Positions 10,860 to 63,540 of a stretch of DNA of 64,000 nt are shown one piece after another. The notes under the pieces were generated by a model that saw only the letters and a program-made list of their open reading frames with translations, ran no database searches and was not told where the DNA came from. The stretch's first letter is position 1, and each line of letters opens with the position of its first letter. Origin of the DNA: Branchiostoma lanceolatum. Taxonomy: Eukaryota > Chordata > Leptocardii > Amphioxiformes > Branchiostomatidae. The position numbers and the translations under genes are program-made. The DNA lies in the NCBI RefSeq assembly GCF_035083965.1, contig NC_089724.1, positions 34,352,722 to 34,416,721 of the forward strand, in the 5' to 3' direction.

Positions 10860-10889
10860 CTTTTTTAAAGTAATGATGTAAATGTTCAA

Positions 10890-27068: not shown

Positions 27069-27288
27069 CTGGTACAGAGGGAACAAACAAGTCAAATACT
27101 CGTGGCTGAACAAAATATTTTCATTTAACAATTTGTGTGTAGTCACCGTCTAAGATTTACCCATGCTGCACTGTTTGATAAATGGTTCAATTGTAGAAAT
27201 CACTACGTTAATGCTTGACTCTAAAACATGCCCAGCTAGCTGTATTTTCAATACGTTGCATAAAGCTCGTAATTTCTAGCCAGTCTAC

Positions 27289-27481: not shown

Positions 27482-27685
27482 CTTGTTGAAAAGGAGTTTA
27501 TCCAGAAGAATAAAGGAAATTGCAATAAATGCGACAGAATCACTAGCAAACAAAAAGGGCAGGAAGTACACTAAATCAGTATTAAAAAAACCCCACTTAA
27601 TCAGAATAGATAAGTTATGGGAGCACAGTTTTGTCCGGGTTAGTATGACAGAAGCGATTTATTTCTATGTACAACTCAGCCTCAC

Positions 27686-27794: not shown

Positions 27795-28100
27795 CTGACG
27801 AAAACAGACGTTCAATTGTGATGATGTGTGATGGGTACTTTAAGCAGATACAAGAGGCTCAGTCACAGACTCTGGGTGCCAATACCAATTGAAGAAACAG
27901 CGAAATGAAGGCATTTCTTTCAGGTCATGTCAGTGTCCCTCAAGTCGGTTTAGTTTGCACGTCTTACATACATGTCGTAGAGATTATATCCTGGCTGATT
28001 CGGTGATAATGCCGGTAGAGATCCCATTAGGAGTCCGTGAATCTGAAGAAATTACCAATTTGAAAGTTTTAACTTTTCAACCTCGATTCATTCCATATTA

Positions 28101-29249: not shown

Positions 29250-29254
29250 CAAAA

Positions 29255-29810
29255 GTTCGGCGACCTCAAATCTCCATGAAATATATATTATGCAAATTAG
29301 GCCTACATTTCCATAATTATATTTGACTATTTTCACTGTCACATAACTTCCAAATGCCACAAGTATGACATTCCAGTTATCTACCAATATGGAATTACAG
29401 TGTTTTCTCAATAATTATGCAAATTTGATCTTCATGTGCATAACTTTTATCTATCAATGTCCCGTTATTTCTCAGTTACAACATATGTTGCATTCTTTAA
29501 CTGTCGTACCATTGAACGGAGTGGGTTTATAAAATGCCCCCTTAATAATGCAAATTGAATTCTGATTTGCATTATCACCATTAAAAGTAACACTTAAGCT
29601 ATCCACATAATGGAAACAAGTATACAGGTTTGGTAGTGTACCCCTTTGTGATTGGACCACCAGCTGTTGGGACCTGGGGAATTCTTGTCCCAGATTTGAA
29701 ACTTACAGGTGTGAGCTACCACAACATGCCTAGAATGGAAGTTAAGATTTTCCTCATTACTTATAAAAATTGAGTCCCAATTTGCATAATTTGTCATTCA
29801 TTGTGTACAT
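29255..29810 (+). repeat. Diverged relative of the ATGCAAAT-rich repeat
   Basis: It aligns with 2270-2840 (for example 'aaatgccacaagtatga', 'cagttatctaccaa', 'ccattgaacggagtggg'). It abuts the 28101-29249 element. Sequence to about 30100 may be further degraded repeat, ending in a short CA-rich run (30042-30066). Confidence 0.7.
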
Positions 29811-38409: not shown

Positions 38410-39076
38410 CGTGACGTAATATTCGGAAACTAAACTGTAGCATATCTGAGTCCGGATATGTTGCGTTGTAAACTGTTCCCGTTTCCAATCATAGATATTT
38501 ATCCGTATACACTAGCTGTCCGTAGCAAAACAACCCCGTAAACGCTGTGGAAAACTCGGAATATTAGGGTAATATTCGGAAACTTAAGTGTTGAATATCC
38601 GAATTCGGATACGCCGAGTGGAAATTTGTTCCCGTTTCCAATCATAGATATTTATCCGTATACACTGGCTGTCCGTCGTAAAACAACTCCGTATACGTTG
38701 CGGATAACTCGAAATAGTAGGGTAATATTCGGAAACTAAAGTGTTGAATATCCGAATTCGGATACGCCGAGTGCAAATTTGTTCCCGTTTCCAATCATAG
38801 AAATGTATCCGTATATACAGGCTGTCCGTAGCAGAAAAAAATCCGTATGTGCTACCGGAAACTCGGTATTTTCGGAAAATATTCAGGAAATAAAACGTTG
38901 CATATCCCGGACTGGATACGCCGAGTGCAATTTTGTTCCCGTTTCCAATCATAGATATTTCTCCGTATACATAGCCTATCTATATCAGGAAATTTCTTGA
39001 TATTGTCGGAAACGTGATGATTTCGGGAATTTTCATAGTATTGAAACGCCCGGAAATGACCCCCTTTCGCGCAGTG
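38410..39076. repeat. ~152 bp tandem array ending in a CACTG-family-like terminus
   Basis: The word 'gttcccgtttccaatcatag' recurs at about 38476, 38628, 38780 and 38934, a period near 152 bp with about 3.5 units. Each unit carries 'atatccgaattcggatacg'-type words. The right end 'cccctttcgcgcagtg' is, inverted, CACTGCGCGAAAGGGG, close to the CACTGCACGAAATGGCC terminus of the 3.5 kb elements. A matching left end was not found. Confidence 0.75.
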
Positions 39077-41267: not shown

Positions 41268-43121
41268 GTTTGTAATCATGGATTTGAATTGAGCACATCT
41301 ATCTTTTGTCATCCTCAATTTTAAAATCTGATATGAAATAAAAACAAAACCAATCATAGGGTTTGCTTTATATCACCAAATGATGCTAGTGACACAAAGT
41401 CACAGGGTTCTTGATTATTTTGTTGCAACACGTCTTGTATGTCAGCTCATGTTGTCATGTGTTTTTAATTGTGAACTGTTGGTTTTCAAAAGTACATATC
41501 AGACTAGCACTGCACGAAATGGCCACGTATCCTGACGGATCCGACGTATCCGGAATCGGGCCTCATGACGTTTCCGAGCGAATCCGGAAAAATCCCAGTT
41601 CACTGCTCGGATACTGAGGTGCCCGCAGATCCGACCAATTCCGACGCCGTATTCCTCTGGATCCGTGATGCGCCTCGGATATCCGAAAATATTTGTGCGG
41701 ATCCCTCGTTTTTTTATATTTGGAATGTTCGGATTGTTTGTATGTCGGTAGTTGTTTCGGATCCTGACGAATAAATACACACGGCACGGCATGATCTCAT
41801 TTCCTGACGAATCCAGCAGATCCGGAATTACGCATTATAGCAGACACGGAACGTTTCCGATTGAATCCGATGCACTTCAGATCCGACAATTCCGGCGCCG
41901 TATACGTCTGGATCCTTCATACGTTTCGGGTACAAATATGGAACGTTTCCGAGCAAATTCAGACAAATACCAGGTACAGCTCAGATCCGGCAATTCCGAC
42001 GCCGTATACGTCTGGATCCGTGATGCGCCTCGGATACCTGAGGATATTTGCGCGAATCCTTCGTTTTCAGATATTTGTCAATATGGCAGAGATAATCGGA
42101 TTGTTTGTTTGTCGGTAGTTGCTTCGGATCCTAACCAACAAATACACACTGCACGGCATGATCTCAGATCCTGAAAAATCCAGCAGATCCGCAATCGTGC
42201 ATCATAGCAGATACGGAACGTTTCCGATTGGATCCGATGCACCTCAGATCCAACAATTCCGACAAATCCTGACGTATCCGGAATACGGATTCGTGTCCAA
42301 TCTCCCACAAGACACTGCGTGTCATGACGTCAGGCGCGAGAAACGGTTTTGTCGGTGAACAGCACGGAGACAAGAACGGCGTTTCATCACTCTCTGTGCT
42401 TAACATGGCATCGTCAGAGTCTACAATGGTCGACCAGTGATTTTTAGTGACTTGAGAGTCGAAGGGGATTCGGTGTAAACTCAAACGCGCGGCATTGCGA
42501 AGTAGTCTTCTTCGTGCATGCAATATTCGTCGCCCCCCTCCCCCTTGTAAAGTTGGTAGGGAGTCGATTCATCATTTAGAGGGACTGCCCTTTGGTAAGT
42601 ACAAATTGGAAAATTCCTGTTTCTAACTAGTTTGAACGTCAGTTATCCTCCTATTGTGGCTTGACATATCATCGCATTTGCATGACATTAAGAATTGTCC
42701 AGTCGACCTGCACTTCTGCACCGTTAGGATCTAGGAAATTTATAGCTTTCAATTTGTTCGTTCTTGCCAATGGTCAACAGACATTTGTGTCTGGTTAACG
42801 TTTCAGATACAACATAGCAAGCGGTTGAGGGAAAGATAATTAAAGATATCCTGTAACGGAAGAGAATGTCATAAGTATTTGTCCCACAAAGGTCCCACAG
42901 TTTGTGGATAGTGAGCTGGAACTTATGTGGAGGTAGTAGTGTGTTTCAGTGATTATTGCATTCAGTTATAGCTGTACATGTTTGATCAATATCATATTCA
43001 AGTTATGAATGTAAGTTTGACGTATTCAATTAAACGATGCCAGATTCATTTTTTACAAATGTGATTATGTGATATGTTTAATATTTGTCATTGTTTCCCT
43101 TTATATATATATCCTATACAG

Positions 43122-43230
43122 CATCGGCAGATACTTCCTTCACGAATGCAGCACATGTTGTGAGGACCTTAGCTTGGCTTGGAACAAAGCAATCAGCTGT
43201 CAGATGCTCAGAGTACCTCAGGCTCCTTCG
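43122..43230 (+). other. Exon-like segment inside the CACTG transposon core
   Basis: Bounded by 'ttatatatatatcctatacag' (acceptor-like) and GTAAGG (donor-like). Two frames are open; one reads IGRYFLHECSTCCEDLSLAW, then NKAISCQMLRVPQAPS. The segment and both splice-like sites are preserved in copy B (56524-56632, minus). A second open segment, 43466-43645 (SSQDELQAESNMLDTEEISL...), is also preserved in copy B, but the phases of the two do not match. It may be a captured gene fragment. Confidence 0.35.
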
Positions 43231-43344
43231 GTAAGGCTTAAGTCCTTCATTGGTACACTTCAATGTTAGCTGAGACAGGCATGATGGATACCCAATGTCC
43301 CTTGTTTTTTGTTAGCTGCTGTGATGAAACGAAGCCCATCACAG

Positions 43345-43377
43345 CAAGGAGGTTATATAGTCTATATAACCTCCTTG
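43345..43377. repeat. Perfect 16 bp-arm hairpin in the transposon core
   Basis: CAAGGAGGTTATATAG, a single T, then CTATATAACCTCCTTG. It is conserved in copy B at about 56384-56416. Function unknown. Confidence 0.85.
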
Positions 43378-44473
43378 ATCACAGTTATGTCAAAATCATG
43401 TGACATGTTACTTAAATACTAAGGATGTGAATTGATATTTATTCATCAATTGGTTATATCATATAGGAACTGGTTCATCACAAGATGAACTCCAAGCTGA
43501 GTCCAACATGCTAGATACAGAAGAAATCAGCCTTGCCTGTACCTTACCAAGAGTGCATGGAAGAAGTGAACTCAGATGTAGTCAGAGAATGGGGAGAGGA
43601 CGATTATACAAATGCAGTTCCACGGCATATACTACTTACGTGTAAAATGTGGCGTGTCATCATGGGAGTTTTTCAGACAGTATAATGTTACTTTGAAGTT
43701 TCTATTTTCAACCTCTGTATTTGAAAATATTTGTATCTGATATCTTTAAGACGAAGAACTGGCCACAAATAAGGCTTTAATTACATGAGTAGAATATGTA
43801 GAACATGTAGAAATTTTGGTCCAAGTGCACTATACGGCAGTAAATATTACCACCATGATGTGATGGTTGTTAATTGTAATACATTTTGTAACAATTGTGC
43901 TTACACAACCCCAATTTACCGACATTAACCTGCATATGCAGAGGTGCTTTGAGTATGTGGATGTCCCTCGGCCTGTCTTAAACGAAATTGATTATTTAGC
44001 CACATAGAACTTCCGTATTGTATTTGATAGTTTTGAACTTAGAAATGCATATATGTTGAAATATGAAATAATGTTACATTCAGGCTTTCCCAAAACTTCC
44101 TGTCATTGAATAATAATGTTTTGGGTATCGTTAAATTAAGAATGCACGCGTATTTATGAATAATTATATAATCAACCATTCTATCAAACTTTGTGTGTTT
44201 GATTTGTACATATTCGTGGCAAATACAAACATATTCAGAGTCACAATATGTCAAAGATTGTAGAAAGTCTGTATGTTGGATCAGTCTGTATCCGTGGCAA
44301 ATACATACTGTACGTATCTGTCAGGATCTTGGGCAATTTCGTGCAATGTACGGCCCCATATCCGTCGAAAATTCCTATTTTTGTATTCCTCCGGATCTGA
44401 GGTTCCGGATCACAGTCCGCTTGTATCCGTCAGTATCCGCCATTTTCTTTTAAAAAATACAGAAAACTTCCTG

Positions 44474-45020
44474 TACGTATCCGTCAGGATCTCTGGCATT
44501 CCCGTACAGTGTACGGCTCCGTATCCGTCGAAAATACCTCATTTTCGGATTCCTCCGGAAATATTCCCGATCCCGGTGCGGAAATTTTCGGATCCGTTAG
44601 GTTGGATTCGTCAGTATCCGTCAGTATCCGCCAAAAATACAGAAAAATCCCTGTACGCATCCGTCAGGATCTGTGGCATTTCCGTACAGTGTACGGCTCC
44701 GTATTCGTCGAAAATACCTTACTCTCGGATTCTTCCGGAAATATTCCATATCCCAGTGCGCATTTAGTCGGATCCGTCAGGTTGGATCCGCCTGTATCCG
44801 TCAGTATCCGCCAAAAATACAGAAAAATTCCTGTTCGTATCCGTCAGGATCGGTGGCATTTCCGTGCAGTGTACGGCTCCGTATTCGTCGAAAATACCTT
44901 ACTTTCGGATTCTTCCGGAAATATTCCATATACCGGCGCGGAAATAGTCGGATACCTTACACGAATCCGCCTGTATCCGTCAGTATCCGTCAGTATCCGA
45001 CAAAAATACAGAAAAATACC
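44474..45020 (+). repeat. ~180 bp tandem units in the right transposon arm
   Basis: Units beginning near 44474, 44652 and 44833 share 'cgtatccgtcaggatc', 'ggcatttccgtacagtg', 'tacggctccgta', 'tccggaaatattcc' and 'cagtatccgccaaaaatac'. Each unit carries a degenerate copy of the element's own terminus. Confidence 0.88.
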
Positions 45021-45124
45021 GGTACGTATACGCCGGGAAACGAGGCCATTTCGTGCAGTGTAGGAACCCCAAACATTCCCTGTTAACCATTTAATCTTGT
45101 TCACCTTGCGCCTTTCCTTTCTAG

Positions 45125-45674
45125 GAATACGCAGTTGTGTTCTACAACCCTTGTCTTGACTGTTACGGCACAGACAAGTTCAACATTTCAGCTGTAGAGA
45201 CGTTACCAGTAAACATGAACCCGCACAGCATCAACATAGAGCTCGTGGTGGAGGTGGAGCCCCGCAATGACGACCCAGTTCTAATTGTCCTTGTTGAGGA
45301 TGAACCCGCTTTGATAGTTCCGACCAAACGATTAGACCTGACAGTTGAGGTGAACCGTGTGTCCAATGTGTACTACCGAGACCTCCACGTCGTTGTGGGA
45401 GCATACGATGTCGAAACGGCTGACACAGTAACTCTGCAGTTCAGTGCTGAAAGTAATGACACCGTGTCCACATCACAGCAGGAACGGCGGGTTGAATTAG
45501 AGCCTGCCTGCACCACCAACTCTACGTGGTTTTCAGTTGTTCGAGAACACAGCAGAAACGATTCCTCAAGACGTCTACATCTGGACCCGTGTGACATTCA
45601 GGCACCGCATCCCGTACAAGACATGGCCTGGGTATTCACTACCCTCACCTACAGACCACATAGAAACTTCACAG
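45125..45674 (+). CDS. Membrane protein, exon e (cadherin/CSPG-like repeats)
   Basis: Acceptor 'cctttctag', donor GTGATG. 183 codons plus one base. NPCLDCYGTDKFNISAVETL, followed by INIELVVEVEPRNDDPVL, matches the end of a cadherin-like tandem repeat (YxGTDxFxIxV...V.I.V.PxNDxPV). The C-terminal part ends LTYRPHRNFTG, again the F/YxPxxNFTG motif of such repeats. Several N-glycosylation sites (NIS, NDT, NST, NDS, NFT). Extracellular. Another frame open at 45537 is a shadow. Confidence 0.85.
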
Positions 45675-45831
45675 GTGATGCATTATATAGTTGTCTTGAA
45701 AGACATGAATTCATGGCTATGGAGTGTATTTTGTCTTTATTTTTTGTGCAGTTTTGTTCATGTAGATATCCTCAAGTTCTTGGTTAAACTCATACGAATT
45801 GAGACTGATTCCAATATATTTGTATTAATAG

Positions 45832-46000
45832 GTAAGGATGTGATCAAGATCAACGCCATGGATCAACATGGCGGCCTTTCCCGTGTCGTGACCCTTGACC
45901 TTTACGTTTTGGAGAACCTGTGCCAACACGGCGGAGAATGTGTTGGTGATGTCACCGATCCTGACTGTACATCAAAGGACAGGGCCAGTGGGTTTGATGG
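45832..46000 (+). CDS. Membrane protein, exon f (repeat end and EGF-like start)
   Basis: After acceptor 'tgtattaatag', phase 1 completion gives G-KDVIKINAMDQHGGLSR, then VVTLDLYVLENLCQHGGECV. The second piece is the end of the adhesion repeat running into an EGF-like module (C-x4-G-x-C). Donor GTAAAG after FDG, phase 2. Confidence 0.85.
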
Positions 46001-46236
46001 GTAAAGGTTTATAATCACACTCTTGGTGTTTGCTGCGGTACGATGATTAAAGCCATAGATGATTTTTGTTGGCAATAGTCTTTTAACTTCATCTAAATCA
46101 ATTTCAAAAGACAACATGATCTTATATCAATAACAGTAGAGAATACGATGCGGTAGGAAAATAATCATGTGATAGCAGTACAACGAGTTGCATGCACGTT
46201 ATGACATACTTTTGATGAGTATGTCCTCATACACAG

Positions 46237-46348
46237 GTACTGGTGCAATTGTACGAGCGCTCCCGGCTGGTCAGGCAGTCTGTGCCAGACCGACTATGAC
46301 GAATGCCTTTCAATGCCATGTCCGAGTAATTACACATGTATTGACCAG
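46237..46348 (+). CDS. Membrane protein, exon g (EGF-like modules)
   Basis: Acceptor 'catacacag', donor GTGAGA. It reads YWCNCTSAPGWSGSLCQTD, completing the first EGF-like domain (C-x-C...GWSGxxC), then YDECLSMPCPSNYTCIDQ, which opens a second (DEC...C...C). The spacing resembles calcium-binding EGF modules. Confidence 0.88.
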
Positions 46349-46520
46349 GTGAGAAAACAGGCTTATAACTGCAACACTCCGAAGCTGGATGTTATTGAGC
46401 ATTTCAAGTCGTATTGTTGAGAAGGTAATATCACAGGAACAAATATCTATAAATCATAATTACCATATTCAGAGGAGGCAAGGGCTTGTCGGATATATAT
46501 TACCTCCATCCCATAATTAG

Positions 46521-46663
46521 GTGAACGGTTACGTCTGTGAGTGCGGGAATCCCGGCTGGCCCTGCGCGGGATACTGGGAAGCTTGGCAGATCTGTTTGAT
46601 CGTGTTGGCTGCTGTGTTCCTGCTACTCCTGGTAATTGTCTTCTGGAAGTGGAAAAAAACCAG
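46521..46663 (+). CDS. Membrane protein, exon h (EGF end and transmembrane helix)
   Basis: Acceptor 'cccataattag', donor GTATTC. VNGYVCECGNPGWPCAGYW closes the EGF module. ICLIVLAAVFLLLLVIVFW is a single membrane-spanning helix, followed by the basic stop-transfer KWKKT. This fixes a type I topology. A degraded copy of this exon lies at 50690-50830. Confidence 0.9.
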
Positions 46664-46825
46664 GTATTCTTGGTTAAATATCATTATTGGTAACCCTGCA
46701 GGTGCGATGATTTTGTACAGCAAAGACCTCAATAATAGTCTCTTTCTACTATCATGTTTTACCAAGCATATCCAGTATAGTCTATGTACAAACCTTGCAC
46801 ACTTTTATCTTCATTACGTCTACAG

Positions 46826-46894
46826 TATCAAGAAGGCAGGTTCTATGTTCTTGGGAAGGTCAAGAGTGTCACCAGCGACAACTTTGATTCAAGT
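46826..46894 (+). CDS. Membrane protein, exon i (cytoplasmic tail)
   Basis: Using acceptor 'tacgtctacag' the exon reads SIKKAGSMFLGRSRVSPATT, then LIQV, with phase 2 out into the next exon. An internal acceptor at 46839 gives a protein-like alternative (FYVLGKVKSVTSDNFDSS), but its phase then hits a stop in exon j. Donor GTAAGT. Which acceptor is used needs transcript data. Confidence 0.6.
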
Positions 46895-47288
46895 GTAAGT
46901 AAATATCGCATTGAATGTTCATTTCGAATCTAAGCGTGAAAATCTAAGGGTGGAATTGCCATTGGCTTATACAGAATCTAAAAGATCAATGCTCATTACG
47001 GGTTTGATCGTAGACTTGTGTGAATTGTTACTTAGTAAAAAGTGATGTTGTTAACATTTATATTTTCTTAACATTTTACGACGCCGGTAACGATTTTGTT
47101 AGAGTACGTATCGTGCTTTGCATTTTTTTATAATAGCTTTTTATCAATCTTAAGTATATAAAAAATATTCCCGCAGAATTCAAGCGGAATTTAAGTTTCA
47201 ACATAAAGTATCATTAAACCTAAGAAAATTTAAGTCAATCTTTAGGAAGAACTCTTATGGACACGGCATTCCAGCCAGTAAATTTAAA

Positions 47289-47645
47289 TCAGACCATGTT
47301 GATTTGATTATATGGATGACATCAGCGCGCGCATAAATTTTCGTCCGTTTCCAAAATTGAAAAAAAAGGCCATACTGCAAATCAACAAAGCAGCTGCAAA
47401 ATTAGAAAATATAGGCTGTAGATTGCAAAAGAATATTTCGGAAAACGGATGTTAATATTGTAGAATACCAAAGTCAATTCCAAAGTCAAAGAAGAAGATA
47501 CTCTATGTGTTTAGTTTTGTTCATCCTTCCTGGCTACATAGACTTGAGGCAACTTTGTTTGCCAAATTTATTTTATTCGCACGCTCGCATCAGGTTTGGG
47601 GTTCCCAGATGATGTCATCGATATAATCAAATCAACATGGCCTCA
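47289..47645. mobile_element. MITE-like TIR element in the membrane-protein gene intron
   Basis: The left end 'ccatgttgatttgattatat' plus 'ggatgacatc' is inverted at the right as 'gatgtcatcgatataatc' plus 'aaatcaacatgg'. About 355 bp. The interior resembles 36000-36300. The words at 47315 also resemble the 'AGGCCACAG' family. Confidence 0.8.
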
Positions 47646-47726
47646 CCAGGAATACAAAATGCTGGTAGGAGATTGTTTATCTAGTTGTAATGATGTTTCT
47701 ACTTGGTTCTATATATCTTACATCAG

Positions 47727-47826
47727 GAACCCAGTTCATGGTGTAAGTGGTGGCGACAATGACGTCAAGCCATCTGAACCCGACTGTGTTACTGGGACGG
47801 GCAGGGCTGGACCCGTCTCGTGCAAG
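47727..47826 (+). CDS. Membrane protein, exon j (cytoplasmic tail)
   Basis: Acceptor 'atatcttacatcag', donor GTAAGA. After the split Val codon it reads NPVHGVSGGDNDVKPSEPDC, then VTGTGRAGPVSCK. Phase 0 out. Cytoplasmic; no known motif recognised. Confidence 0.75.
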
Positions 47827-47939
47827 GTAAGACTCGGGCTACTGAATGATCTCCACCGTCGGTAAAAGAGAAATTTTAATATGCGGGAAATTTAAGTTTA
47901 TGTATTGAAATAGGTAATGAGAAACATCTCATATTTCAG

Positions 47940-48119
47940 GTACGCAGCGCTTGGGATGATGACGACTCTTCGGATCGACGGGCTGCCGCCTTGCTGAACT
48001 GGGAGTGGAGCCCTAAGAGCAGTGCCGAAACACGTGACCGTCCCATGGGTGTGCTGGCTTGTGCTGTCACTGAGCTGAGGCCGCTGCGAGGGACGCCTGT
48101 TAAGAAGACCGAACCCTGA
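47940..48119 (+). CDS. Membrane protein, terminal exon k
   Basis: Acceptor 'ctcatatttcag'. It reads VRSAWDDDDSSDRRAAALLN, then WEWSPKSSAETRDRPMGVLA, then CAVTELRPLRGTPVKKTEP and TGA (48117-48119). This closes the open frame that begins at 39691. Confidence 0.85.
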   Translation, partial: VRSAWDDDDSSDRRAAALLNWEWSPKSSAETRDRPMGVLACAVTELRPLRGTPVKKTEP

Positions 48120-48246
48120 ACGAGAGAATGGCCATCATACCTATTCGGATTTTGACTTGACAAAGGCGCTTGTAGGCATTTGCTTCAGCCAATAGTGTAA
48201 CTGTTGAATTTTTGGGCTGATTTTTGTCAGATAATTTCCTGAATGT

Positions 48247-48252
48247 AATAAA
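48247..48252 (+). terminator. Probable polyadenylation signal AATAAA
   Basis: AATAAA lies 128 bp after the stop codon of the membrane-protein gene, a normal distance for a short 3' UTR. Confidence 0.6.
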
Positions 48253-49474
48253 GTATGTTATTTCGCAATAATTCTTAAACCGAACCAAAATTTACGTTTA
48301 GATAAACAGCAGGAACGTCTGATGCTGTATGTTAATGTACGATTTTCTCCCGAGTATAATGCAATGTAATGTCTCATTAATATAATACATATCAACATTC
48401 ATTCATTACATAAATTTACCTTTTTCATTACAATAACCCTACCTTAATCATGACAATTGGTTTTGAATTAATTCTTCTTTTTGTTGTTTGTTTTTTCCGC
48501 TTTGCGAGCAAATAAAAATGCTAAAGCAGCAAACATGTTTCTACAGAGTTGTCTTTTACGATATATGCAGAGAGCCCTACAAATATTACTGGGGAGCTTG
48601 TGAATAGTACTTACATTCAATGACGTGCTTCATTAATCAAAGTTATCATAAGAGATCAGAAAATGAAAACAACACCTGAAAACTCTTCAATGACTTGTCT
48701 TCGTTTTTATCAATGCCTGGATGAGCACTACACGTTATTCATAATGGACATGTTTTCAATTCTCTACCTCTACGTTAGCCTGATTGAATCAAGTTATAGT
48801 GGCCAACCCATCAACTGGCCCCGGGGGGGGGGGGGCATTAACGCCCCGGACAGTGGAAATTCGTTACACAGTGTACCTCTACGTGATTGAAATTAATTCA
48901 TAATCCGAAATGGGGGACGACGTATTTTGTTCAGAATTTGTTCCTCAAATTTCCTACTTGAGACATGCGTGTGTGAGTTTTGGATAGTATCATAAACCAT
49001 ATATTTTTTAAAGTCACCATTTTCCTAGCAGTTAATTACAAAACGTTGCTTCAGGACGTTATAACTAAAATACGACATCTAGTAATTGAATAGTATCACT
49101 TGCCCATGTCTTCAGGAGAAAGAAGTGTAGGTTAGCGGTGTTATAGGAAAACGAATTGATGACATCGATCAGGGCGCGTATTTCTAAAAAAAAAGATTCT
49201 TTCATTTCGGAGATGGTCCGCATAGTTAGAAAATACCAAAAATCAGTGTCACTTTCCACAGGTGCACTTATTGTATACAGGATTCAAATACTTGTTGACC
49301 GTAAGACCTATTATCTTTTCTGTGAAAAATATACTTTTTGTTTTGCTTTTTATTGGCATATCTTCTTTTTGTCGCTCTCGCATGAAATTTGGAGTCTGCA
49401 TGCCTTGGGTGATTTCCTTACTTGCAGCCTTAAAAGATGATACCGATGTTTGACAAACTCACACCGAGCCATTC
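48253..49474. other. No gene recognised; G-run
   Basis: A 14-base G run at 48824-48837 ('ccccgggggggggggggg') is the only standout. Short frames without splice context. Confidence 0.45.
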
Positions 49475-49752
49475 ATGTGACCAGGGCGTCTTAAAATGGC
49501 ACATAGGGGTGGCGCCCATCTCCATATGTATACCCCTTGGGCGACACAAATTTGGGCAAGTCACTAAAGCAGGGGCCTGTCCGCTGGTAGTGATGTGTGT
49601 GTTTAACTTATATACTTTTCCCCAAATGCTGAGTGCTAAGCAGAGAGCGTGGTATGTACCATCCTTTAAGTCTTTGGTATGACCCCGCCTGGGATCAAAC
49701 TCATGACCTACCGTGTGCTAGGCGAACACTCTACTAACTAGGCCATTGTACC
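49475..49752 (-). repeat. tRNA-Ala-like SINE, family 2, minus copy
   Basis: On the minus strand 'atggcctagttagtagagtg' (A box), 'gttcgcctagcacacgg' (an anticodon-arm-like segment with AGC) and 'gagtttgatcccaggcg' (B box) are followed by the tail words 'tagcactcagcatttgg' and 'gggcgccacccctatg' shared with 25005-25240. The stems do not pair well enough for a working tRNA. Confidence 0.78.
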
Positions 49753-50689
49753 GGAAATACCGAGCCATACCCTTCTAGTAAATATGGGGTAGCTCTCCTT
49801 AAACAGCAGACCTTACGATTAAAGAACATCTTGTAGTTGCAAATAAGACCTGTTAGTGATCAAAGTCAGGGACCAGAAAGTAGATCGTTGTACTCAAGCG
49901 ACTTTATCTATTTTGACACCAATTGACAGCCATTTCAAAAGTTTGAAAAATGGTTTCATTGCTCCTAAAAACGTATTTTACCGAAGCGTAATTCCTTTTC
50001 TACCCGTTCCATTTTCTATTGACTGTAATCTTTAACGTTAAATCACTGTTAGTGCTGATCATTAAAATCTTTATTGAGTGTGCCACTTGGCATCTACATT
50101 CATTGTGCTCACATAATATACATGGGATAAGACAGTTGTCATATTTTAAGATCTACAGAACGTATAAGAATCTTACGCTGATATGTTGGTTTATTGGTCA
50201 TTATTGCACTCTTGAATTGTAGACAGATAAGGAGAGATTCGTCTGATGATTCCAGCTACCTGGCATTGGCAGTAAAAAGAGATCTTACGATTCTCTATTT
50301 GTACTTTAGACATTGAATATGATTCTAAACAATCCATTGAGCATTTTGTCATTTGCTTAGTGTCATAATGAGAGAATGATGGGGATGTTTTACCTTTGGA
50401 AAATTTACCGCAATGATATAGCCCCAGCGTGATAAAGGACCACCGTAATGAGACGCTGTATATCAGTTACCTTGTTCGCCAGTATGATTGAAGCCATTTC
50501 TTTTTCCCCGTGCCTGTGTTTGCTTGCTTGTTTGTTTGTTTGTTTGTTTGTGGACAGAAAAACTTAACAAGTTGTGACTGGATCAAAAAGCTATGTGAAG
50601 GTGAAAAAGATAAACATATTTCATCATTACTCTCCAGACGGATTCTTTAATATTCTTTCGCAGCATAACTTCTAGTTTTTGAATCGCGT
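49753..50689. other. No gene recognised; (TTTG)n
   Basis: The microsatellite 'tgcttgcttgtttgtttg...' lies at about 50519-50551. Nothing else I can support. Confidence 0.45.
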
Positions 50690-50830
50690 GATTTGGACAT
50701 GCACTGCTCAAGCCTTTCAGTGGCTGTGCGGGGTACAGTGCCTGGCAGATCTGTTTGATCGTGTTAGCACTTGCAAACGTGCCTGACAATAGTATTCCGC
50801 AGGAATTGGAAGAGGTCCTGGTATTCATGT
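50690..50830 (+). pseudogene. Degraded duplicate of the transmembrane exon (exon h)
   Basis: 'gtggctgtgcggggtacagtgcctggcagatctgtttgatcgtgttagc' (read in pieces: 'gcggggtacagtgcctgg', 'cagatctgtttgatcgtgtt') aligns with exon h at 46555-46610 ('gcgggatactgggaagcttgg', 'cagatctgtttgatcgtgtt'). The frame and the hydrophobic stretch are broken soon after. A relic of a local duplication, about 4 kb downstream of the source. Confidence 0.7.
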
Positions 50831-52697
50831 TATGAATTATCAGTCAGCTTTGTTGGATATGAATTGCAACTTTATCCAGTATTCACGGTTTACGATTTAC
50901 AAAAATGTCGCGTGGTGGCGCTTTTTGTGCATTTTAAGTATAGAGAAAGCAGATCTGAGAAATGTTGGTCCTAAATCTCTAGCGGTGAATCGAAGGAACG
51001 TCACACGGGAAGGGTGTCTTCGACCTTATTTGAAACCCTTTATCGTGATATTCAGATTCCTTTTGAACAATTAAAGACTTTATTGAATTTGTAAGTTCTT
51101 CTTAAATGCCAGGCGTTCGACATGTATTATCAAAACATTGTAACAGGAACCAGCCACAAGATAACGTTTTTAACAACAGCCATGTTAATTTTTTCTGTTG
51201 ACATATAAAGACAACTGAATGTTGGCGCCTGCGTTGGAATCGATGGCTCATGTCACAATTTGGTCACCGAAACAGTAACGCTATTTTTGTCGATTTCTCC
51301 ATGTGGATCATAAGGGCTTCAGGTAAAATTCATACCGTATCTTTTTTTACTCCCGCACACTTATAAAATTGGTTTTAAAAATATACAAACGATTATCGAT
51401 GTAGGTCTGTAATTATTAGTATGCTTGTCATTTTTCTGCTTCGATTTCACTATTTATTTCTCTAGGATTTCTGTATTATTATGTATCTATTATATTTGCT
51501 ATTCCTGAGTCGCCAGCTTCTTTTGGAAAATCTTTAGATACTGTTTAAAAAAGAGGGGTCTGCGATAATTACAATTTCTAGACATATGCATATAATCAAA
51601 TGTATACATTCAGTCGGCCAACGGTTATGCATGCATTTGTATACGTGGTAACGGTACGAGAATGCATCCTGTACTTTTGAAGATATACTTAGAGCTATAA
51701 GGGATATGAAGAGATGTAGGAAGAGTCACGGACATCCGTGCAAAAAACGACCCCGGCAGGAGTACATACAATATCCGGTGTCGCGCCTAATGTTTGCTCC
51801 GACAAATTTATTTTCTGTGGGGTCGTGTGCGTTAATGTTACGGCAGTGTTAGGGCTAGGTTTATGGCTATTCAAAGTCAATTTGTCACTGGAACCTAAGT
51901 CCACCTTTTTAGTATATATATAAGCCCCATAAAGTACCGAGTAACTGTCACTAGAAACCCCATGAAGTGGCCGGGTAAATAATTGGTAGGGGCAAACATC
52001 TGCCTCAACACTGGTACATGCCACGTAATGTTTGGCATATGTAAAGACATTATACGGTGAGGTTTTTGTTGTCCTGAAACAACATGGGTAAGTGTGCTTT
52101 AAAATGTCTCAGGCTGTAACGTTGTTATTTTCCTATATCAGGACAAGTTATCTCACCAGTTGTTTATCTTTGGGATGTTTGATTTAAATTCGAAGCACCT
52201 TAAAAAGTCGACTTATAACTTACAAGTTTCTTTGTGCTCAAGGACTATTTCCCTTTGCAGAAATCCATGTGTTGGTGGGGGTCGGTCCGTTCCTGAGAGT
52301 TTCTTTTATGTAGTAGACATAAAAATTAACCTATCCTTCATATGTTTTAAACTTAGAAATAGTGTGGCAAGTACCCCACGACATTTGTGTAGCAAAACCT
52401 ATGTAATGTTTATGCCATTTTTTACAAACGTATACAAAACAGAAAGGGCAGGATGTGACCAGGGCGAGGCTTATCTTTACTTTACACTTATTTTCGTTTG
52501 AACTAACGCTGAACAGTTTATCAAATCTGCAAGAAAATGTTTCTCGACATGTATATTCGTGGGTTTATCAATGGTCATATTGACGGGGTAGTGAGGGTGT
52601 AGAATCCGTCGAAGCTAATGAAGTAAAAAAAAAACGAAAGTGTAAGCCAACACGGATGTGAATTACTTTAGGCCTTCATTTCTTGTTTATTTTACTA
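50831..52697. other. No gene recognised
   Basis: AT-rich intergenic sequence. Short open frames lack start context, splice sites or similarity. An AATAAA-like region and palindromic 'tatatata' words occur near 51911, but I assign nothing. Confidence 0.45.
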
Positions 52698-53994
52698 AGG
52701 CCACAGCAAATAAATTTTATGGATGACATCCTCCGCGGACTCCAAAATTAATGAGATAGGGCGAAAAAAAAACAAGCCGGGGCAAAAAAAACAAGATTCC
52801 AATATTTTCAAATTTTGAGATCATAATTCTTGATAAGGCCACAGCAAATAAATTTTATGGATGACATCCTCCGCGGACTTCAAAATTAATGAGATAGGGC
52901 GAAAAAAAAACAAGCCGGGGCAAAAAAAACAAGATTCCAATACATGTATTTTCAAATTTTGAGATCATAATTCTTGATAAACAAGAATTGAGGTGACAAA
53001 ATATGATATCATGACCAACAGGTCTTTTAGTCCTGTATTCATTCATATATAATATAAAACCTCCTGGATTCAGCAGTAAACATGTCCTTGTAGATGTGTA
53101 TACATCTCAATAGACTTACTACAACAAATGCAGAAAAGAACTTGTTGTACCATCATCTGAAGCAACTACACTGGCTTTTCATATGCGATGAAACACCTTG
53201 TGTATACAGCTCAATTAACTAGACCCCACCCCCATTATTTATATAAAGTCCTTGCTAGAGCAAATGCAGAAAACAGCTTGTTATTATACCATCATGGGCA
53301 GGAACTACACTAGTTATTCATATGCAAGGAAACACCTTAGACTGTCAACGTTTACGACATATTTGCCAATTTTTGGCATGTCGACCTCCGTCGGAGGGCA
53401 ATGAAATTTCTTGTTTTTTATTTCGAAATCAGGCGAAAATTAATGAGCGCGCTGATGTCATCCATAAAAATTACTTGCTGTGGCCTAAACAAGAATTGAG
53501 GTGACAAAATATGATATCATGACCAACAGGTCTTTTAGTCCTGTATTCATTCATATATAATATAAAACCTCCTGGATTCAGCAGTAAACATGTCCTTGTA
53601 GATGTGTATACATCTCAATAGACTTACTACAACAAATGCAGAAAAGAACTTGTTGTACCATCATCTGAAGCAACTACACTGGCTTTTCATATGCGATGAA
53701 ACACCTTGTGTATACAGCTCAATTAACTAGACCCCACCCCCATTATTTATATAAAGTCCTTGCTAGAGCAAATGCAGAAAACAGCTTGTTATTATACCAT
53801 CATGGGCAGGAACTACACTAGTTATTCATATGCAAGGAAACACCTTAGACTGTCAACGTTTACGACATATTTGCCAATTTTTGGCATGTCGACCTCCGTC
53901 GGAGGGCAATGAAATTTCTTGTTTTTTAGTTCGAAATCAGGCGAAAATTAATGAGCGCGCTGATGTCATCCATAAAAATTACTTGCTGTGGCCT
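52698..53994. mobile_element. 'AGGCCACAG' TIR transposon with internal tandem duplications
   Basis: The left end 'aggccacagcaaataaattt' plus 'tatggatgacatcc' is inverted at the right as 'gatgtcatccataaaaat' plus 'tacttgctgtggcct'. The left 138 bp are present twice (52698 and 52836), and the 508 bp body with its right end is present twice (52979 and 53487), nearly identical. No transposase. The right end stops only 30 bp before the hydroxylase start codon. Fragments of the family lie at 3815, 17062 and perhaps 47313. Confidence 0.85.
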
Positions 53995-54023
53995 AACGTA
54001 TATTTGCTTTGGATGCAGATGTG

Positions 54024-54090
54024 ATGAACGTTTTCCTGCTTTTTCTGTTGGTACCCCTGCGCGTCCGGCTGGTGTCTGCAAATGCCAAAG
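54024..54090 (+). CDS. P3H: Prolyl 3-hydroxylase-like protein, exon 1 (signal peptide)
   Basis: ATG at 54024-54026. MNVFLLFLLVPLRVRLVSAN is a signal peptide with a hydrophobic core and an SAN-A type cleavage region, as required for an ER-lumen enzyme. The donor is GTAAAA after AAAG, phase 1; the leftover G plus CT of exon 2 gives Ala. An upstream ATG immediately followed by TGA (54019-54024) overlaps the start by one base. An acceptor-like 'ttgctttggatgcag' ends at 54018, so an upstream untranslated exon is possible. Assignment to the catalytic exons rests on strand, phase and proximity. Confidence 0.6.
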
Positions 54091-54239
54091 GTAAAAGATA
54101 GGAATTTATTTTCCCTGCGATTTTCTAAAGAGAGAGAGATTTTCGATACGATACTATAGATATCGATTATGCATATAGTGACATCGTTTGCGTAATGATG
54201 AGAAAATACTGTAATTCCAAAGTGGTAAATGACGGTTAA

Positions 54240-54345
54240 ATAACATCGTTGGAATATTTAAGTTAATTTGAAAATGAAGGTCATCAAACATAAACTATGC
54301 AAATCAGGGCCTTATCTGCATAATGGTGAGAAATACTAGAATGAA
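54240..54345 (+). repeat. Fragment of the ATGCAAAT-rich repeat
   Basis: 'aactatgcaaatcagggcc' followed by 'ttatctgcataatg' shows the paired Oct-like words of the 28101/62381 family. It lies in intron 1 of the hydroxylase gene. Confidence 0.5.
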
Positions 54346-54497
54346 TGTCTTTGCTAAAATTGAACTTTGTCCGACTTGTTTTATTTGGGAAGACAAGGTC
54401 GTAAACTTATAGAGCAATGACGTTATTTGAATGATTGATAAAAAACCTTTATGATACGTCATTTATAACGGTTGATATTATTTCGCGAAGGAACTCA

Positions 54498-54730
54498 AGT
54501 TACCTTCACCGAGAAGGTTATGTTTAGCCCAGCATTTGTATGTCTGTCTGTCTGTCTGTCTGTGTCTGTCAACAGGATAGCTCGAATGCCAGAATGGATT
54601 GCCGTCATGCTTTGCAGGTGAGTAGTTATTGGTGAGACCTAAAACAATTAGACTTTGGGCGCCCTAGCGTCTTTTTATGGTTCTGCAGCGGAATTTCTTG
54701 TTTTGATATCTCGTGTTCTGGACATGCTAT
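54498..54730 (-). repeat. TACCTTCGCC repeat, left part, split by the CACTG transposon
   Basis: It begins 'gttaccttcaccgagaagg' and includes a (GTCT)n run at 54539-54570. It matches 62381-62604 up to 'tctggacatgctat', where copy B is inserted. The repeat resumes at 58240 ('ggtcttgatttttgagcgg', against 'ggaacttaattttgagtgg' at 62605). Confidence 0.85.
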
Positions 54731-57700
54731 CACTGCACGAAATGGCCTCGTTTCCCGGCGTATACGTACCGGTATTTTTCTGTATTTTTGTCGGATACTG
54801 ACGGATACTGACGGATACAGGCGGATTCGTGTAAGGTATCCGACTATTTCCTCACCGGTATATGGAATATTTCCGGAAGAATCCGAAAGTAAGGTATTTT
54901 CGACGAATACGGAGCCGTACACTGCACGGAAATGCCACCGATCCTGACGGATACGAACAGGAATTTTTCTGTATTTTTGGCGGATACTGACGGATACAGG
55001 CGGATCCAACCTGACGGATCCGACTAAATGCGCACTGGGATATGGAATATTTTCGGAAGAATCCGAAAGTAAGGTATTTTCGACGAATACGGAGCCGTAC
55101 ACTGTACGGAAATGCCACAGATCCTGACGGATGCGTACAGGGATTTTTCTGTATTTTTGGCGGATACTGACGAATTCAACCTAACGGATCCGAAAATTTC
55201 CGCACCGGGATCGGGAATATTTCCGGAGGAATCCGAAAATGAGGTATTTTCGACGGATACGGAGCCGTACACTGTACGGAAATGCCAGAGATCCTAACGG
55301 ATACGTACAGGAAGTTTTCTGTATTTTTTAAAAGAAAATGGCGGATACTGACGGATACAAGCGGACTGTGATCCGGAACCTCAGATCCGGAGGAATACAA
55401 AAATAGGAATTTTCGACGGATATGGGGCCGTACATTGCACGAAATTGCCCAAGATCCTGACAGATACGTACAGTATGTATTTGCCACGGATACAGACTGA
55501 TCCAACATACAGACTTTCTACAATCTTTGACATATTGTGACTCTGAATATGTTTGTATTTGCCACGAATATGTACAAATCAAACACACAACGTTTGATAG
55601 AATGGTTGATTATTCATAAATACGCGTGCATTCTTAATTTAACGATACCCAAAACATTATTATTCAATGACAGGAAGTTTTGGGAAAGCCTGAATGTAAC
55701 ATTATTTCATATTTCAACATATATGCATTTCTAAGTTCAAAAACTATCAAATACAATACGGAAGTTCTATGTGGCTAAATAATTAATTTCGTTTAATACA
55801 GGCCGAGGGACATCCACATACTCAAAGCACCTCTGCATATGCAGGTTAATGTAAGCACAATTGTTACAAAATGTATTACAATTAACAACCATCACATCAT
55901 GGTGGTAATATTTACTGCCGTATAGTGCACTTGGACCAAAAATTTCTACATGTTCTACATATTCTACTAAAGTAATGAAAGCCTTATTTGTTGCCAGTTC
56001 TTCGTCTAAAAGATATCAGATACAAATATTTTCAAATACAGAGGTTGAAAATAGAAACTTCAAAGTAACATTATACTGTCTGAAAAACTCCCATGATGAC
56101 ACGCCACATTTTACACGTAAGTAGTATATGCCGTGGAACTGCATGTGTATAATCGCCCTCTCCCCATTCTCTGACTACATCTGAGTTCACTTCTTCCATG
56201 CACTCTTGGTAAGGTACAGGCAAGGCTGATTTCTTCTGTATCTAGCATGTTGGACTCAGCTTGGAGTTCATCTTGTGATGAACCAGTTCCTAAATGATAA
56301 AACCAAATGATAAATAAATATCAATTCACATACTTAGTATTTAAGTAACATGTCACATGATTTTGACATAACTGTGATCAAGGAGGTTATATAGACTATA
56401 TAACCTCCTTGCTGTGATGGGTTTCGTTTCATCACAGCAGCTAACAAAAAACAAGGGACAATGGGTATCCATCATGCCTGTCTCAGCTAACATTGAAGTG
56501 TACCGATGATGGACTTAAGCCTTACCGAAGGAGCCTGAGGTACTCTGAGCATCTGACAGCTGATTGCTTTGTTCCAAGCCAAGCTAAGGTCCTCACAACA
56601 TGTGCTGCATTTGTGAAGGAAGTATCTGCCGATGCTGTATAGGATATATATATATAAAGGGAAACAATGACAAATATTAAACATATCACATAATCACATT
56701 TGTAAAAAATGAATCTGGCATCGTTTAATTGAATACGTCAAACTTACATTCATAACTTGAATATGATATTGATCAAACATGTACAGCTATAACTGAATGC
56801 AATAATCACTGAAACACACTACTACCTCCACATAAGTTCCAGCTCACTATCCACAAACTGTGGGACCTTTGTGGGACAAATACTTATGACATTCTCTTCC
56901 GTTACAGGATATCTTTAATTATCTTTCCCTCAACCGCTTGCTATGTTGTATCTGAAACGTTAACCAGACACAAATGTCTGTTGACCATTGGCAAGAACGA
57001 ACAAATTGAAAGCTATAAATTTCCTAGATCCTAACGGTGTAGAAGTGCAGGTCGACTGGACAATTCTTAATGTCATGCAAATGCGATGATATGTCAAGCC
57101 ACAATAGGAGGATAACTGACGTTCAAACTAGTTAGAAACAGGAATTTTCCAATTTGTACTTACCAAAGGGTAGTCCCTCTAAATGATGAATCGACTCCCT
57201 ACCAACTTTACAAGGGGGAGGGGGGCGACGAATATTGCATGCACGAAGAAGACTACTTCGCAATGCCGCGCGTTTGAGTTTACACCGAATCCCCTTCGAC
57301 TCTCAAGTCACTAAAAATCACTGGTCGACCATGGTAGACTCTGACGATGCCATGTTAAGCACAGAGAGTGATGAAACGCCGTTCTTGTCTCCGTGCTGTT
57401 CACCGACAAAACCGTTTCTCGCGCCTGACGCCATGACACGCAGTGTCTTGTGGGAGATTGGACACGAATCCGTATTCCGGATACGTCAGGATTTGTCGGA
57501 ATTGTTGGATCGGATCCAATCGGAAACGTTCGTATCTGCTATGATGCACGATTGCGGATCTGCTGGATTTTTCAGGATCTGAGATCATGCCGTGCAGTGT
57601 GTATTTGTAAGTTAGGATCCGAAGCAACTACCGACAAACAAACAATCCGATTATCTCTGCCATATTGACAAATATCTGAAAACGAAGGATCCGCGCAAAT

Positions 57701-58239
57701 ATCCTCAGGTATCCGAGGCGCATCACGGATCCAGACGTATACGGCGTCGGAATTGCCGGATCTGAGCTGTACCTGGTATTTGTCTGAATTTGCTCGGAAA
57801 CGTTCCGTATTTGTACCCGAAACGTATGAAGGATCCAGACGTATACGGCGCCGGAATTGTCGGATCTGAAGTGCATCGGATCCAATCGGAAACGTTCCGT
57901 GTCTACTATAATGCGTAATTCCGGATCTGCTGGATTCGTCAGGAAATGAGATCATGCCGTGCCGTGTGTATTTATTCGTCAGGATCCGAAACAACTAGCG
58001 ACATACAAACAATCCGAACATTCCAAATATAAAAAAAACGAGGGATCCGCACAAATATTTTCGGGTATCCGAGGCGCATCACGGATCCAGAGGAATACGG
58101 CGTCGGAATTGGTCGGATCTGCGGGCACCTCAGTATCCGAGCAGTGAACTGGGATTTTTCCGGATTCGCTCGGAAACGCCATGAGGCCCGATTCCGGATA
58201 CGTCGGATCCGTCAGGATACGTGGCCATTTCGTGCAGTG
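54731..58239 (-). mobile_element. CACTG-terminus DNA transposon, 3509 bp, copy B, TSD TAT
   Basis: This is the inverted counterpart of copy A (41508-45060), alike over the arms and core with small indels. Termini are CACTGCACGAAATGGCC and GGCCATTTCGTGCAGTG. TAT flanks both sides (54728-54730, 58240-58242 read as ctTAT... TATgg; the G of the right terminus is at 58239). The uninterrupted host repeat at 62595-62615 reads 'catgctatggaac', with TAT once, confirming the 3 bp duplication. It lies in the putative first intron of the hydroxylase gene. No transposase. Confidence 0.93.
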
Positions 58240-58475
58240 TATGGTCTTGATTTTTGAGCGGTAGGTAGCTCTTGGGAGGGAGAGTATGTCATATAGGTTT
58301 TTGCCCCCTCGCGGCTTTTGGTATTGCAGGAGCAGATATTGTTTCAATCTTTGAACGACAAGTATTGGTTGACGGATCATCATAATTTATGGTATGTAGA
58401 TAGCTTAAGTAATGATTTATATAACCATATGCTGATTTTGCAGTAGTCAATTTGTATCATTAATGAGCTGATATT
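58240..58475 (-). repeat. TACCTTCGCC repeat, right part after the transposon
   Basis: This continues the host repeat: 'gagcggtaggtagctcttgg', 'ccccctcgcggcttttggta', 'ttgcaggagcagatattg' align with 62617-62705 ('gagtggtagatagatcttcg', 'acccctagcggcttttttga', 'ctgcaggagcaggttttg'). Confidence 0.8.
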
Positions 58476-59251: not shown

Positions 59252-59403
59252 CTGCAGCCACTCCAAAACTTCCTGTATACGGATACGACATGGTGGATGT
59301 CACGCTTACCGCGAACCCGGGGGATCTAAAGGGGGAAAAGCGAGTACTTGTGGATGGCCTGGCTACACAGGGGGAATGCGACATGATGCTCGACTTGGCA
59401 CAG
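59252..59403 (+). CDS. P3H: Prolyl 3-hydroxylase-like protein, exon 2
   Basis: Acceptor 'ttttgtcttcatcag', donor GTGACT, phase 0 out. It reads AATPKLPVYGYDMVDVTLTA, then NPGDLKGEKRVLVDGLATQG, then ECDMMLDLAQ. The L-x-G-x-x-RVLxDGxxxxxEC pattern is the start of the leprecan-family C-terminal catalytic region, just before the 2-oxoglutarate/Fe(II) dioxygenase fold. The usual N-terminal TPR-rich half of vertebrate P3H1-3 was not found between this exon and the signal-peptide exon. Confidence 0.8.
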
Positions 59404-59835
59404 GTGACTTAACTTTGATGTTATCCTACTTAGCTTATGCCTGGATTCAGATGGATTGTTTGAACTTCAAGCAGGTGTTTTCGACAAATAGAACGATCCG
59501 AAAGCTTGGCGTAGAAATACACTTGCTTGTCGGCCGCAGCCAATAGTCTTACCGCTAACTGTTGTACTATCATTGGTTGAGCTGCTCATCGTGTGGGACT
59601 GTCAGGATCAGTCTATTGCTGAAGTCAGGTGTCTATGACCTATTTTAAAGATTACGTGACCTTATGTGACGTCAGCAATTAGTTTATATCGCTCGCTATC
59701 TCAAGTGAACTTGGCGATTGGTCATTCGAATTCCGCACAAGACTGCAGCATATTGGTCCTTTTTTCCTAATTGTCATAGATTCAATACGATTGCTCATTT
59801 TTCAATAATTATGCTTAACGTGAATAATCATACAG

Positions 59836-60040: not shown

Positions 60041-60307
60041 AGGTTAAACAACTTTTTAATTATCTGGTAGCATGATTTTATGCAGAGTATATATTAATGT
60101 GGTCTTGTGTAATTTAGTTATGTTCGTTACCTTTTTTACATTTGTTTTTAACTTTGAGTTGTAAGCCCATAGCTCATTGAAAAACGCATTTTAAGCCATA
60201 CATGTTTGTACCCCCTGGTAAAATAGATAAACCAAACAAACATATAAAGATAAATGTTGAAATGTTTAGAGCTCACAGCATGAAATGAGATTGAATTTTT
60301 CCCTCAG

Positions 60308-60455
60308 CTTGCTCAACAAGGTGCAGTTCCAATTGACTCCGCGGAGAAGCTCCTTACTTTGAGTGATAAGGCAAGACGCTTCGTACTTGGCTACTTTGGC
60401 CTGCCAGAGCTGTACCTTACGTACACGCACCTTGTCTGCCGCACTGCAGATGCTA
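60308..60455 (+). CDS. P3H: Prolyl 3-hydroxylase-like protein, exon 4
   Basis: Acceptor 'gaatttttccctcag', donor GTAAGT, phase 1 out. It reads LAQQGAVPIDSAEKLLTLSD, then KARRFVLGYFGLPELYLTYT, then HLVCRTADA. The L-Y-x-x-Y/F-T/S-HLVCRTA motif is highly characteristic of the leprecan prolyl 3-hydroxylases. Confidence 0.9.
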
Positions 60456-61084
60456 GTAAGTATACTAGAAACATATGTGAGTCTGATCCTGCAAAAGGCT
60501 GCAGTAATCGTGAGGACGTAAATCAAAGTTTTATCTTTAATATACATTGAAGCGACCTTGAAGACCAAGTAAGGGTACCTAGTAGACAAAATTACTTGGA
60601 CTTAACATTGTTCAATTAGCTGTAAAGATTTAGTTCAACTTTGCCAACATACTCGCCTGTGACTCTGTGCCACCCTGCTGGCCTTTGTGCCATAGCTGTC
60701 AGCCTTTATTTAGAGGTGAAGGATGTCAACTTCTTAATGACTTTCTCCTCCCATTCTGTCTTCTTCACAAACATACACATACATGTATGTACAGCAAACA
60801 ACACAGAAAGCTGAATACACTAAAAGATGGGAACTGAAGAGAACGCCATTCTGTTTTGATCTCAACATCGTTTGTTTAGTTACCTCCGTTTGAAGAATGA
60901 ATTGTTTTCGATCTGTCTATTTGTGTGTCCATCTGTATTCCCCGGCTGAGTTTGCTCGGCTCCATCTTCCCCCCAGTCCTGCAGGCTGAGTGGGCCGGGT
61001 CAGAAATGACGTCTATAGGCTTAGTTGGCCGGAATCAAAATGTGTTTCCCCCGGTCCAGGTCTGTGTAGCGTAGGGCTGCTACA
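60456..61084. other. Intron 4 sequence, nothing further recognised
   Basis: Intronic between hydroxylase exons 4 and 5. No repeat I can name before the 0.88 kb TIR family copy. Confidence 0.5.
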
Positions 61085-62380: not shown

Positions 62381-63540
62381 TTACCTTCGCCGAGAAGGTT
62401 ATGCAGAGGGTAGCGTTTGTTTGTCTGTCTGTTTGTAGTGGCACAGAATAACTCAAGAACGCCTCCATGGATTGTCTTGGTATTTGGTATGTTGGTAGGT
62501 TTTGATGAGACCTAAAAACGATTAGATTTTGGGCCCCCTAGCGGCTTCTTGCGGTACTGCAGCGGAACTTCCTGGTTTGATATCTCGTGTTCTGGACATG
62601 CTATGGAACTTAATTTTGAGTGGTAGATAGATCTTCGGACAGAGAGTAAGTGGTGTGGATTTGGGACCCCTAGCGGCTTTTTTGAAACTGCAGGAGCAGG
62701 TTTTGCGTCTGACTTTGAAAGGGAATAACTCAAGAAGGGCTTGATGGATGGTAATGATTTTTGGTAGGTAGATAGCTTGAGTGATGATGTACATGATTAG
62801 ACACCTCTTATGCAAATCAGTATCTAATTTGCATAATTAATGAGGAAAGTTTATACATCCGCCAAATTCAATGATAGGACTCTGAAACATGTGATATATG
62901 TAACTGAGGAAGAGATAAATATAAATTGATATGAACTATGCAAATGAAGACCTCATTTTCATAATTAATGAGGAAATACTACAACAAGATGGGCTTGCTG
63001 GATGGTCATTATTTTTGGTATGTAGATAGCTTGTGTGATGCTTAGTATGATTGGACAATAATTATGCAAATCAGATTCTAATTTGCATAATTAATGAGGC
63101 AACTTTAAAAATCCGCTTTGTTCCATGACATGACTACTCGTATTCAAATTGTAACTGAGGAAGAGAGAAATGTTTGTAGACAGAAAATATGCTAATGTGG
63201 GCTAATTTGCATACTTAATGAGTAACTTCTCTAATTCCACACTGGCAAATGACGGCAATTTCATACATTCAATACTTTTTTTTGGCATCGGGACGTTATG
63301 TGAATGTAAACATCGTTGAACCAAATTATGCTAATACGGGCCTCATTTGCTTAATTAATGAAAAATATTAGCATAACCTTCTTTGTTGTGCTCATAATTT
63401 GTTAAGCTCATACTTTGGACATGTTATATTTTAAGACAATCAACTGGTATGATTTATAATTGATGAGAAACACTCCTAATACATCAGTCATAAAGGTCAA
63501 AATCATTTGGCGAAGGTATGAGGTCGTGGAACTCTAGTTT
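62381..63540 (-). mobile_element. 1.15 kb TACCTTCGCC element, copy 2, intronic
   Basis: Reverse complement of 28101-29249 over its full length. It starts 'ttaccttcgccgagaagg' and ends 'tggcgaaggtatgaggtcg' followed by 'tggaactctagtttta'. It contains the intact version of the site (TAT at 62602-62604) where CACTG copy B is inserted in its relative at 54730. The ~126 bp octamer-bearing units are visible here too. Confidence 0.88.

Follow-up and report, generated by a model that had tools for sequence, protein, structure and literature searches.

Two inverted, near-identical CACTG-ended elements in amphioxus DNA, probably independent insertions of a non-autonomous CACTA/EnSpm-like family

A 64,000-nucleotide stretch of Branchiostoma lanceolatum DNA (contig NC_089724.1, positions 34,352,722 to 34,416,721; "the window" means this whole stretch) carries two transposable elements of about 3.5 kb, here called copy A and copy B, which share inverted ends beginning with CACTG and stand in opposite orientation 9670 bp apart. 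A short third member of the family and a lone related end lie elsewhere in the window. The coordinates, opposite direction and near-identity that a first-pass annotation gave for the two long copies are exact and were confirmed by end matches and alignment, as was its statement that their 3-bp target duplications differ. It does not list the short third member or the lone end with them. The copies and their relatives are as follows.

41508-45060, plus strand: copy A, a non-autonomous CACTG-ended transposon of 3553 bp, delimited by its ends and by alignment
54731-58239, minus strand: copy B, 3509 bp, inverted relative to A, delimited in the same way
41508-41524, plus strand: 5' terminal inverted repeat of A, 17 bp, perfect
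45044-45060, minus strand: 3' terminal inverted repeat of A, 17 bp, perfect
54731-54747, plus strand: terminal inverted repeat of B at its low-coordinate end, the 3' end of the element
58223-58239, minus strand: terminal inverted repeat of B at its high-coordinate end, the 5' end of the element
41505-41507: left target duplication of A, TAG
45061-45063: right target duplication of A, TAG
54728-54730: left target duplication of B, TAT
58240-58242: right target duplication of B, TAT
23453-23639: third member, a 187-bp fold-back miniature element with the same 17-bp ends, recognised by ends, duplication and fold
39061-39076, minus strand: lone related end, CACTGCGCGAAAGGGG, next to an array of 153-bp tandem repeats (38416-38971)

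Both long copies are bounded by perfect inverted ends of 17 bp, CACTGCACGAAATGGCC. The exact 17-mer occurs six times in the window, twice in each of three elements; allowing up to three mismatches raises the number to 10, compared with an average of 0.11 over 100 shuffled sequences. Alignment of A and B revealed 3464 identical positions out of 3504 (98.9%), the differences amounting to 40 substitutions (22 transitions and 18 transversions) and 9 insertions or deletions. The 187-bp element has perfectly complementary arms of 89 bp and is flanked by a duplication of CCA (23450-23452 and 23640-23642); in single-stranded form the DNA makes one hairpin of -123 kcal/mol, compared to a mean of -25 for 200 shuffles. 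In an inventory of CACTG...CAGTG pairs with 14-bp ends, up to two mismatches and a length between 61 and 20000 bp, 13 pairings were retained, and only A, B and the 187-bp element (3/13) were flanked by matching triplets. Forty Markov-1 control sequences yielded 1.4 pairs on average and six at most, none with matching triplets.

When a partner for the lone end was sought in the window with up to three mismatches, only the six ends of A, B and the 187-bp element matched. The array and this end together (38416-39076) probably represent an element of a related CACTG family of which one end is left. Pattern scans for the end of the element found no stretch in viral contigs and none in contigs from bacterial or archaeal genomes, which is what an animal host would predict.

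Copy B was inserted into an older repeat, two further copies of which are uninterrupted at that point and carry one TAT each.

62381-62794, plus strand: paralogous empty site for B, a diverged copy of its host repeat with a single TAT
28848-29258, minus strand: second paralogous empty site for B, with a single TAT

These sites are 73% and 70% identical, respectively, to the joined flanks of B. The single TAT at both of them establishes that the duplication of B is 3 bp long, and the fourth flanking base is mismatched in all three members of the family. The joined flanks of A have no other match in the window, which hence offers no empty site for A; those of the 187-bp element have no other match across the junction there, and no empty site was found for it either. 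Since the duplications of A and B differ and the site of B is empty in two copies of the repeat, the long copies can be regarded as independent insertions, as the first-pass annotation had proposed from the duplications.

The older repeat family, about 1.1 kb long, is represented at 28100-29195 (minus strand) and 62445-63540 (plus strand) by copies that are 93-97% identical over the listed pieces. The copy that hosts B is more diverged than these two, which provide its empty sites.

Three regions with contrasting composition can be distinguished inside A.

41508-42300, plus strand: 5' subterminal region, ATCCG-rich, CpG observed/expected 1.54 (boundary by eye)
42301-44270, plus strand: core, AT-richer, CpG observed/expected 0.68, motif nearly absent, no Pfam domain (boundaries by eye)
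44271-45060, plus strand: 3' subterminal region, 180-bp tandem units with repeated CGTCAGTATCCG (boundary by eye)

The CpG ratio of the 3' region, whose boundary was likewise drawn by eye, is 1.58, and that of the window is 0.88. Partial internal duplications with a spacing of 355-367 bp are found in the 5' region. A contains 51 instances of the pentamer ATCCG, 33 of them forward and 18 reverse; all lie within the first 900 bases or beyond base 2700, and none in the 1.8 kb between. The density of the pentamer, about 14 per kb over A, compares with 1.2 per kb in the remaining window. The extended motif CGTCAGTATCCG is present six times in A and absent from the window outside the three elements.

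A near-perfect 33-bp palindrome around AAGGAGGTTATATAGTCTATATAACCTCCTT is located in the core of both copies (43345-43377 and 56379-56411). Splice-like signals can be seen by eye in the core of A, namely donor-like GT at 42595 and 43231 and acceptor-like AG before 43122 and 43467, and Pfam disclosed no recognisable gene there. No transposase domain reached the Pfam cut-off in the six reading frames of A or of B. Matches with E up to 1, all below the curated cut-offs and judged to be chance, were RELT (0.12) and TnpV (0.017) in A and Eno-Rase (0.18) in B. A 36-residue reading of the core matched a designed protein among solved structures (E 0.00048), with no stretch passing alone, and this match was judged meaningless.

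Short subterminal repeats in both orientations are a feature of CACTA/EnSpm elements, and ATCCG provides them in A. Further points of agreement are the CACTG variant of the termini on both long copies, as in CNIRT6, and 3-bp duplications of variable sequence (TAG, TAT and CCA) across the three members, with an empty site for B only. A and B are thus very probably separate cut-and-paste insertions of one non-autonomous CACTA/EnSpm-like family whose transposase is encoded elsewhere. As neither a transposase nor a full-length relative was seen, the superfamily is deduced from ends, duplication length and anatomy. Membership in CACTA/EnSpm is provisional and the elements are at most non-autonomous and CACTA/EnSpm-like, because the defining transposase, a DDE enzyme of the CMC clade, was not found by Pfam in six frames of A or B.

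Several observations weigh against this assignment. No full-length relative was seen and no transposase in the six frames of A and B, and the ends read CACTG...CAGTG instead of the canonical CACTA...TAGTG. The 40 substitutions between A and B are unevenly spread: a single stretch of 650 bp holds 17 of them (p 0.012 by simulation, and 0.055 to 0.086 with the three other window sizes), which may reflect mosaic ancestry or conversion; conversion without crossover is also possible. Published duplication lengths vary as well: one account, in the portion cited, gives 5 nt for rice and maize (PMC8903248), and an excerpt on an animal TRC-type CACTA element gives 2 bp (PMC4298943). In an excerpt from a further source, CACTA termini are called highly conserved and a 3-bp duplication is given for the superfamily (PMC4158355).

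The target duplications also bear on the other superfamilies that come into question. The Chapaev group with a 4-bp target duplication was dismissed on the mismatched fourth flanking base of all three members and the 3-bp empty site of B, and Transib/ProtoRAG elements, which make a 5-bp duplication, on the 3 bp duplicated here. Chapaev3 shares both the CAC ends and a 3-bp duplication with the present elements and is nevertheless very unlikely: all Chapaev3 elements examined in the cited part of one study duplicate TWA, between A and T (PMC4079192), and none of TAG, TAT and CCA is TWA, on which ground it was rejected. The same excerpt gives 3 to 4 bp for Chapaev duplications generally (PMC4079192). 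PIF elements mostly duplicate TTA or TAA, with shares of 52.4% in rice and 81.2% in maize in the portion cited (PMC8903248), and PIF/Harbinger was discarded since TAG, TAT and CCA are found instead.

Among named elements, CNIRT6 is described in the cited excerpt as a CACTA element with ends starting CACTG and variable 3-bp duplications; it differs from A and B in its length of about 7.5 kb, its 24-bp ends, its own encoded transposase and its fungal host (PMC12810828). EnSpmN6_DR, a zebrafish element, is likened to them by description and not by sequence: as excerpted, it is non-autonomous, has terminal inverted repeats and lies in a gene-bearing region of an animal (PMC3485254). Pack-CACTA elements, in the part of the account cited, share the non-autonomous character, the CACTA-like ends and a core without transposase; they are described in plants, and here no captured gene was recognised and the splice-like signals were seen by eye (PMC8903248). 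That the core of the family is a captured host gene fragment, which would make the family an animal counterpart of plant Pack-CACTA, is unlikely. The 187-bp member resembles miniature inverted-repeat transposable elements (MITEs) in being a perfect fold-back with the family ends, and A and B differ from these in their far greater length and 2-kb core. A literature search for EnSpm elements with CACTG, their terminal inverted repeats and their target duplications matched no paper. What is new here is at most one more family of a known kind.

The arrangement of the pair raises the question whether the two copies ever acted together. The first-pass annotation had suggested that they could act as one composite element, and the outer ends of the 16.7-kb block (41508-58239) do match each other perfectly as inverted CACTG ends in the 14-bp comparison. 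These ends are flanked by TAG on one side and TAT on the other, with no duplication, and A and B each possess a complete duplication of their own. As the outer triplets do not match, the block was not inserted as one unit, and a composite transposon made of A, B and the DNA between them is extremely improbable. Misassembly has to be considered too, since long repeats that are nearly identical are known to provoke it and the first-pass annotation had itself named an artefact as a possible undoing of the pair. The two copies, however, differ at 40 sites and by 9 insertions or deletions, their flanks are different and each is bordered by a duplication of its own, B in addition having an empty site; the chance that the second copy is an artefact is accordingly judged minimal.

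The edges of the copies bear no trace of the inversion of 45061-54730 that, by the earlier suggestion, the pair can drive. Inverted repeats of 3.5 kb that are 98.9% identical and 9.7 kb apart are a possible substrate, long near-identical inverted repeats being plausible sites of non-allelic crossover. Yet a single crossover of A with B would put TAG/ATA around one copy and CTA/TAT around the other, and both copies have matching triplets instead; moreover, the two flanks of B are contiguous in two other repeat copies and so belong together. A past single-crossover inversion is thereby ruled out for this haplotype, which has undergone no net flip. Given the matching triplets, the sequenced arrangement is either the order of insertion or the product of an even number of flips; the latter, or flips in other individuals, are possible. 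That A and B form a recombination pair whose intervening segment flips orientation in the population is highly doubtful.

In the history favoured here, the non-autonomous family would owe its mobility to a transposase, presumably of CACTA/EnSpm type, whose gene lies elsewhere in the genome. A and B would have landed separately and not as a unit, so that their present order would be the order of landing and their opposite orientation a matter of chance. The transposase or a helper protein presumably binds the subterminal arrays; TnpA in plants is a helper protein of this kind. Judged by the 98.9% identity of its copies, the family was probably active recently.

With the help of matching target duplications and empty sites, a single sequence can be enough to decide if two inverted copies have recombined with each other or been inserted together as a composite. 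For the sequenced haplotype both answers are no, barring an even number of flips; the pair is real, correctly located and ordinary.

The first-pass annotation placed both copies in introns of different genes. Downstream of B, two exons similar to prolyl 3-hydroxylase were found.

59299-59406, plus strand: exon resembling prolyl 3-hydroxylase (9.0 bits, not significant alone)
60305-60457, plus strand: prolyl 3-hydroxylase-like exon downstream of B

Joined by hand, the two exons match prolyl 3-hydroxylase 1 (8k0e) with E 8.6e-9, and the second exon in its unjoined frame does so with E 0.00018. These exons bear out part of the earlier proposal of a hydroxylase gene at B. The first exon that it placed between A and B did not turn up in a similarity search that took in the forward frames from 46900 to 54730, but neither 45061-46899 nor the minus strand. 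From the sequence similarity of its two neighbours, B plausibly lies in an intron of a hydroxylase gene.

The membrane-protein gene proposed around A is represented by a weak match to an EGF-like domain (E 0.0044; 17.5 bits, the cut-off being 27) and by hydrophobic residues that the eye picks out in the frame 46521-46898. The EGF-like match was the best of four with E up to 1 that ten single frames gave against Pfam, none of them at the cut-off. Twelve translations of the flanking DNA, scanned with Pfam as whole frames, yielded no family at E 0.1; such scans are insensitive for single exons, and these covered the minus strand only for 45061-54730. By eye, the frames 46521-46898 and 50692-50835 were seen to have an almost identical stretch, CAGY...AWQICLIVLA, in common, and there seems to be a membrane-spanning exon with a partial second copy about 4 kb downstream.

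Other features of the window concern further repeats and genes. The region 52696-53994 is a nested repeat with two 138-bp tandem units, several repeats of 33-bp inverted ends, AGGCCACAGCAAATAAATTTTATGGATGACATC, and a 508-bp direct duplication, of which the listed 300 bp (from 52978 and 53486) are 100% identical; it looks like a recently duplicated miniature element. At 25491-27532 there is a direct duplication of about 1.2 kb, with a spacing of 1170-1184 bp and 87-97% identity over the listed pieces. An open frame at 5885-9676 (plus strand; 1263 amino acids from stop to stop, 1253 of them scanned) contains an endonuclease (PF03372, E 1.3e-7) and a reverse transcriptase (PF00078, E 1.5e-39) and is apparently an intact non-long-terminal-repeat retrotransposon. 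On the minus strand, an exon at 10518-10892 belongs to a seven-transmembrane receptor of the rhodopsin type (PF00001, E 5e-14).

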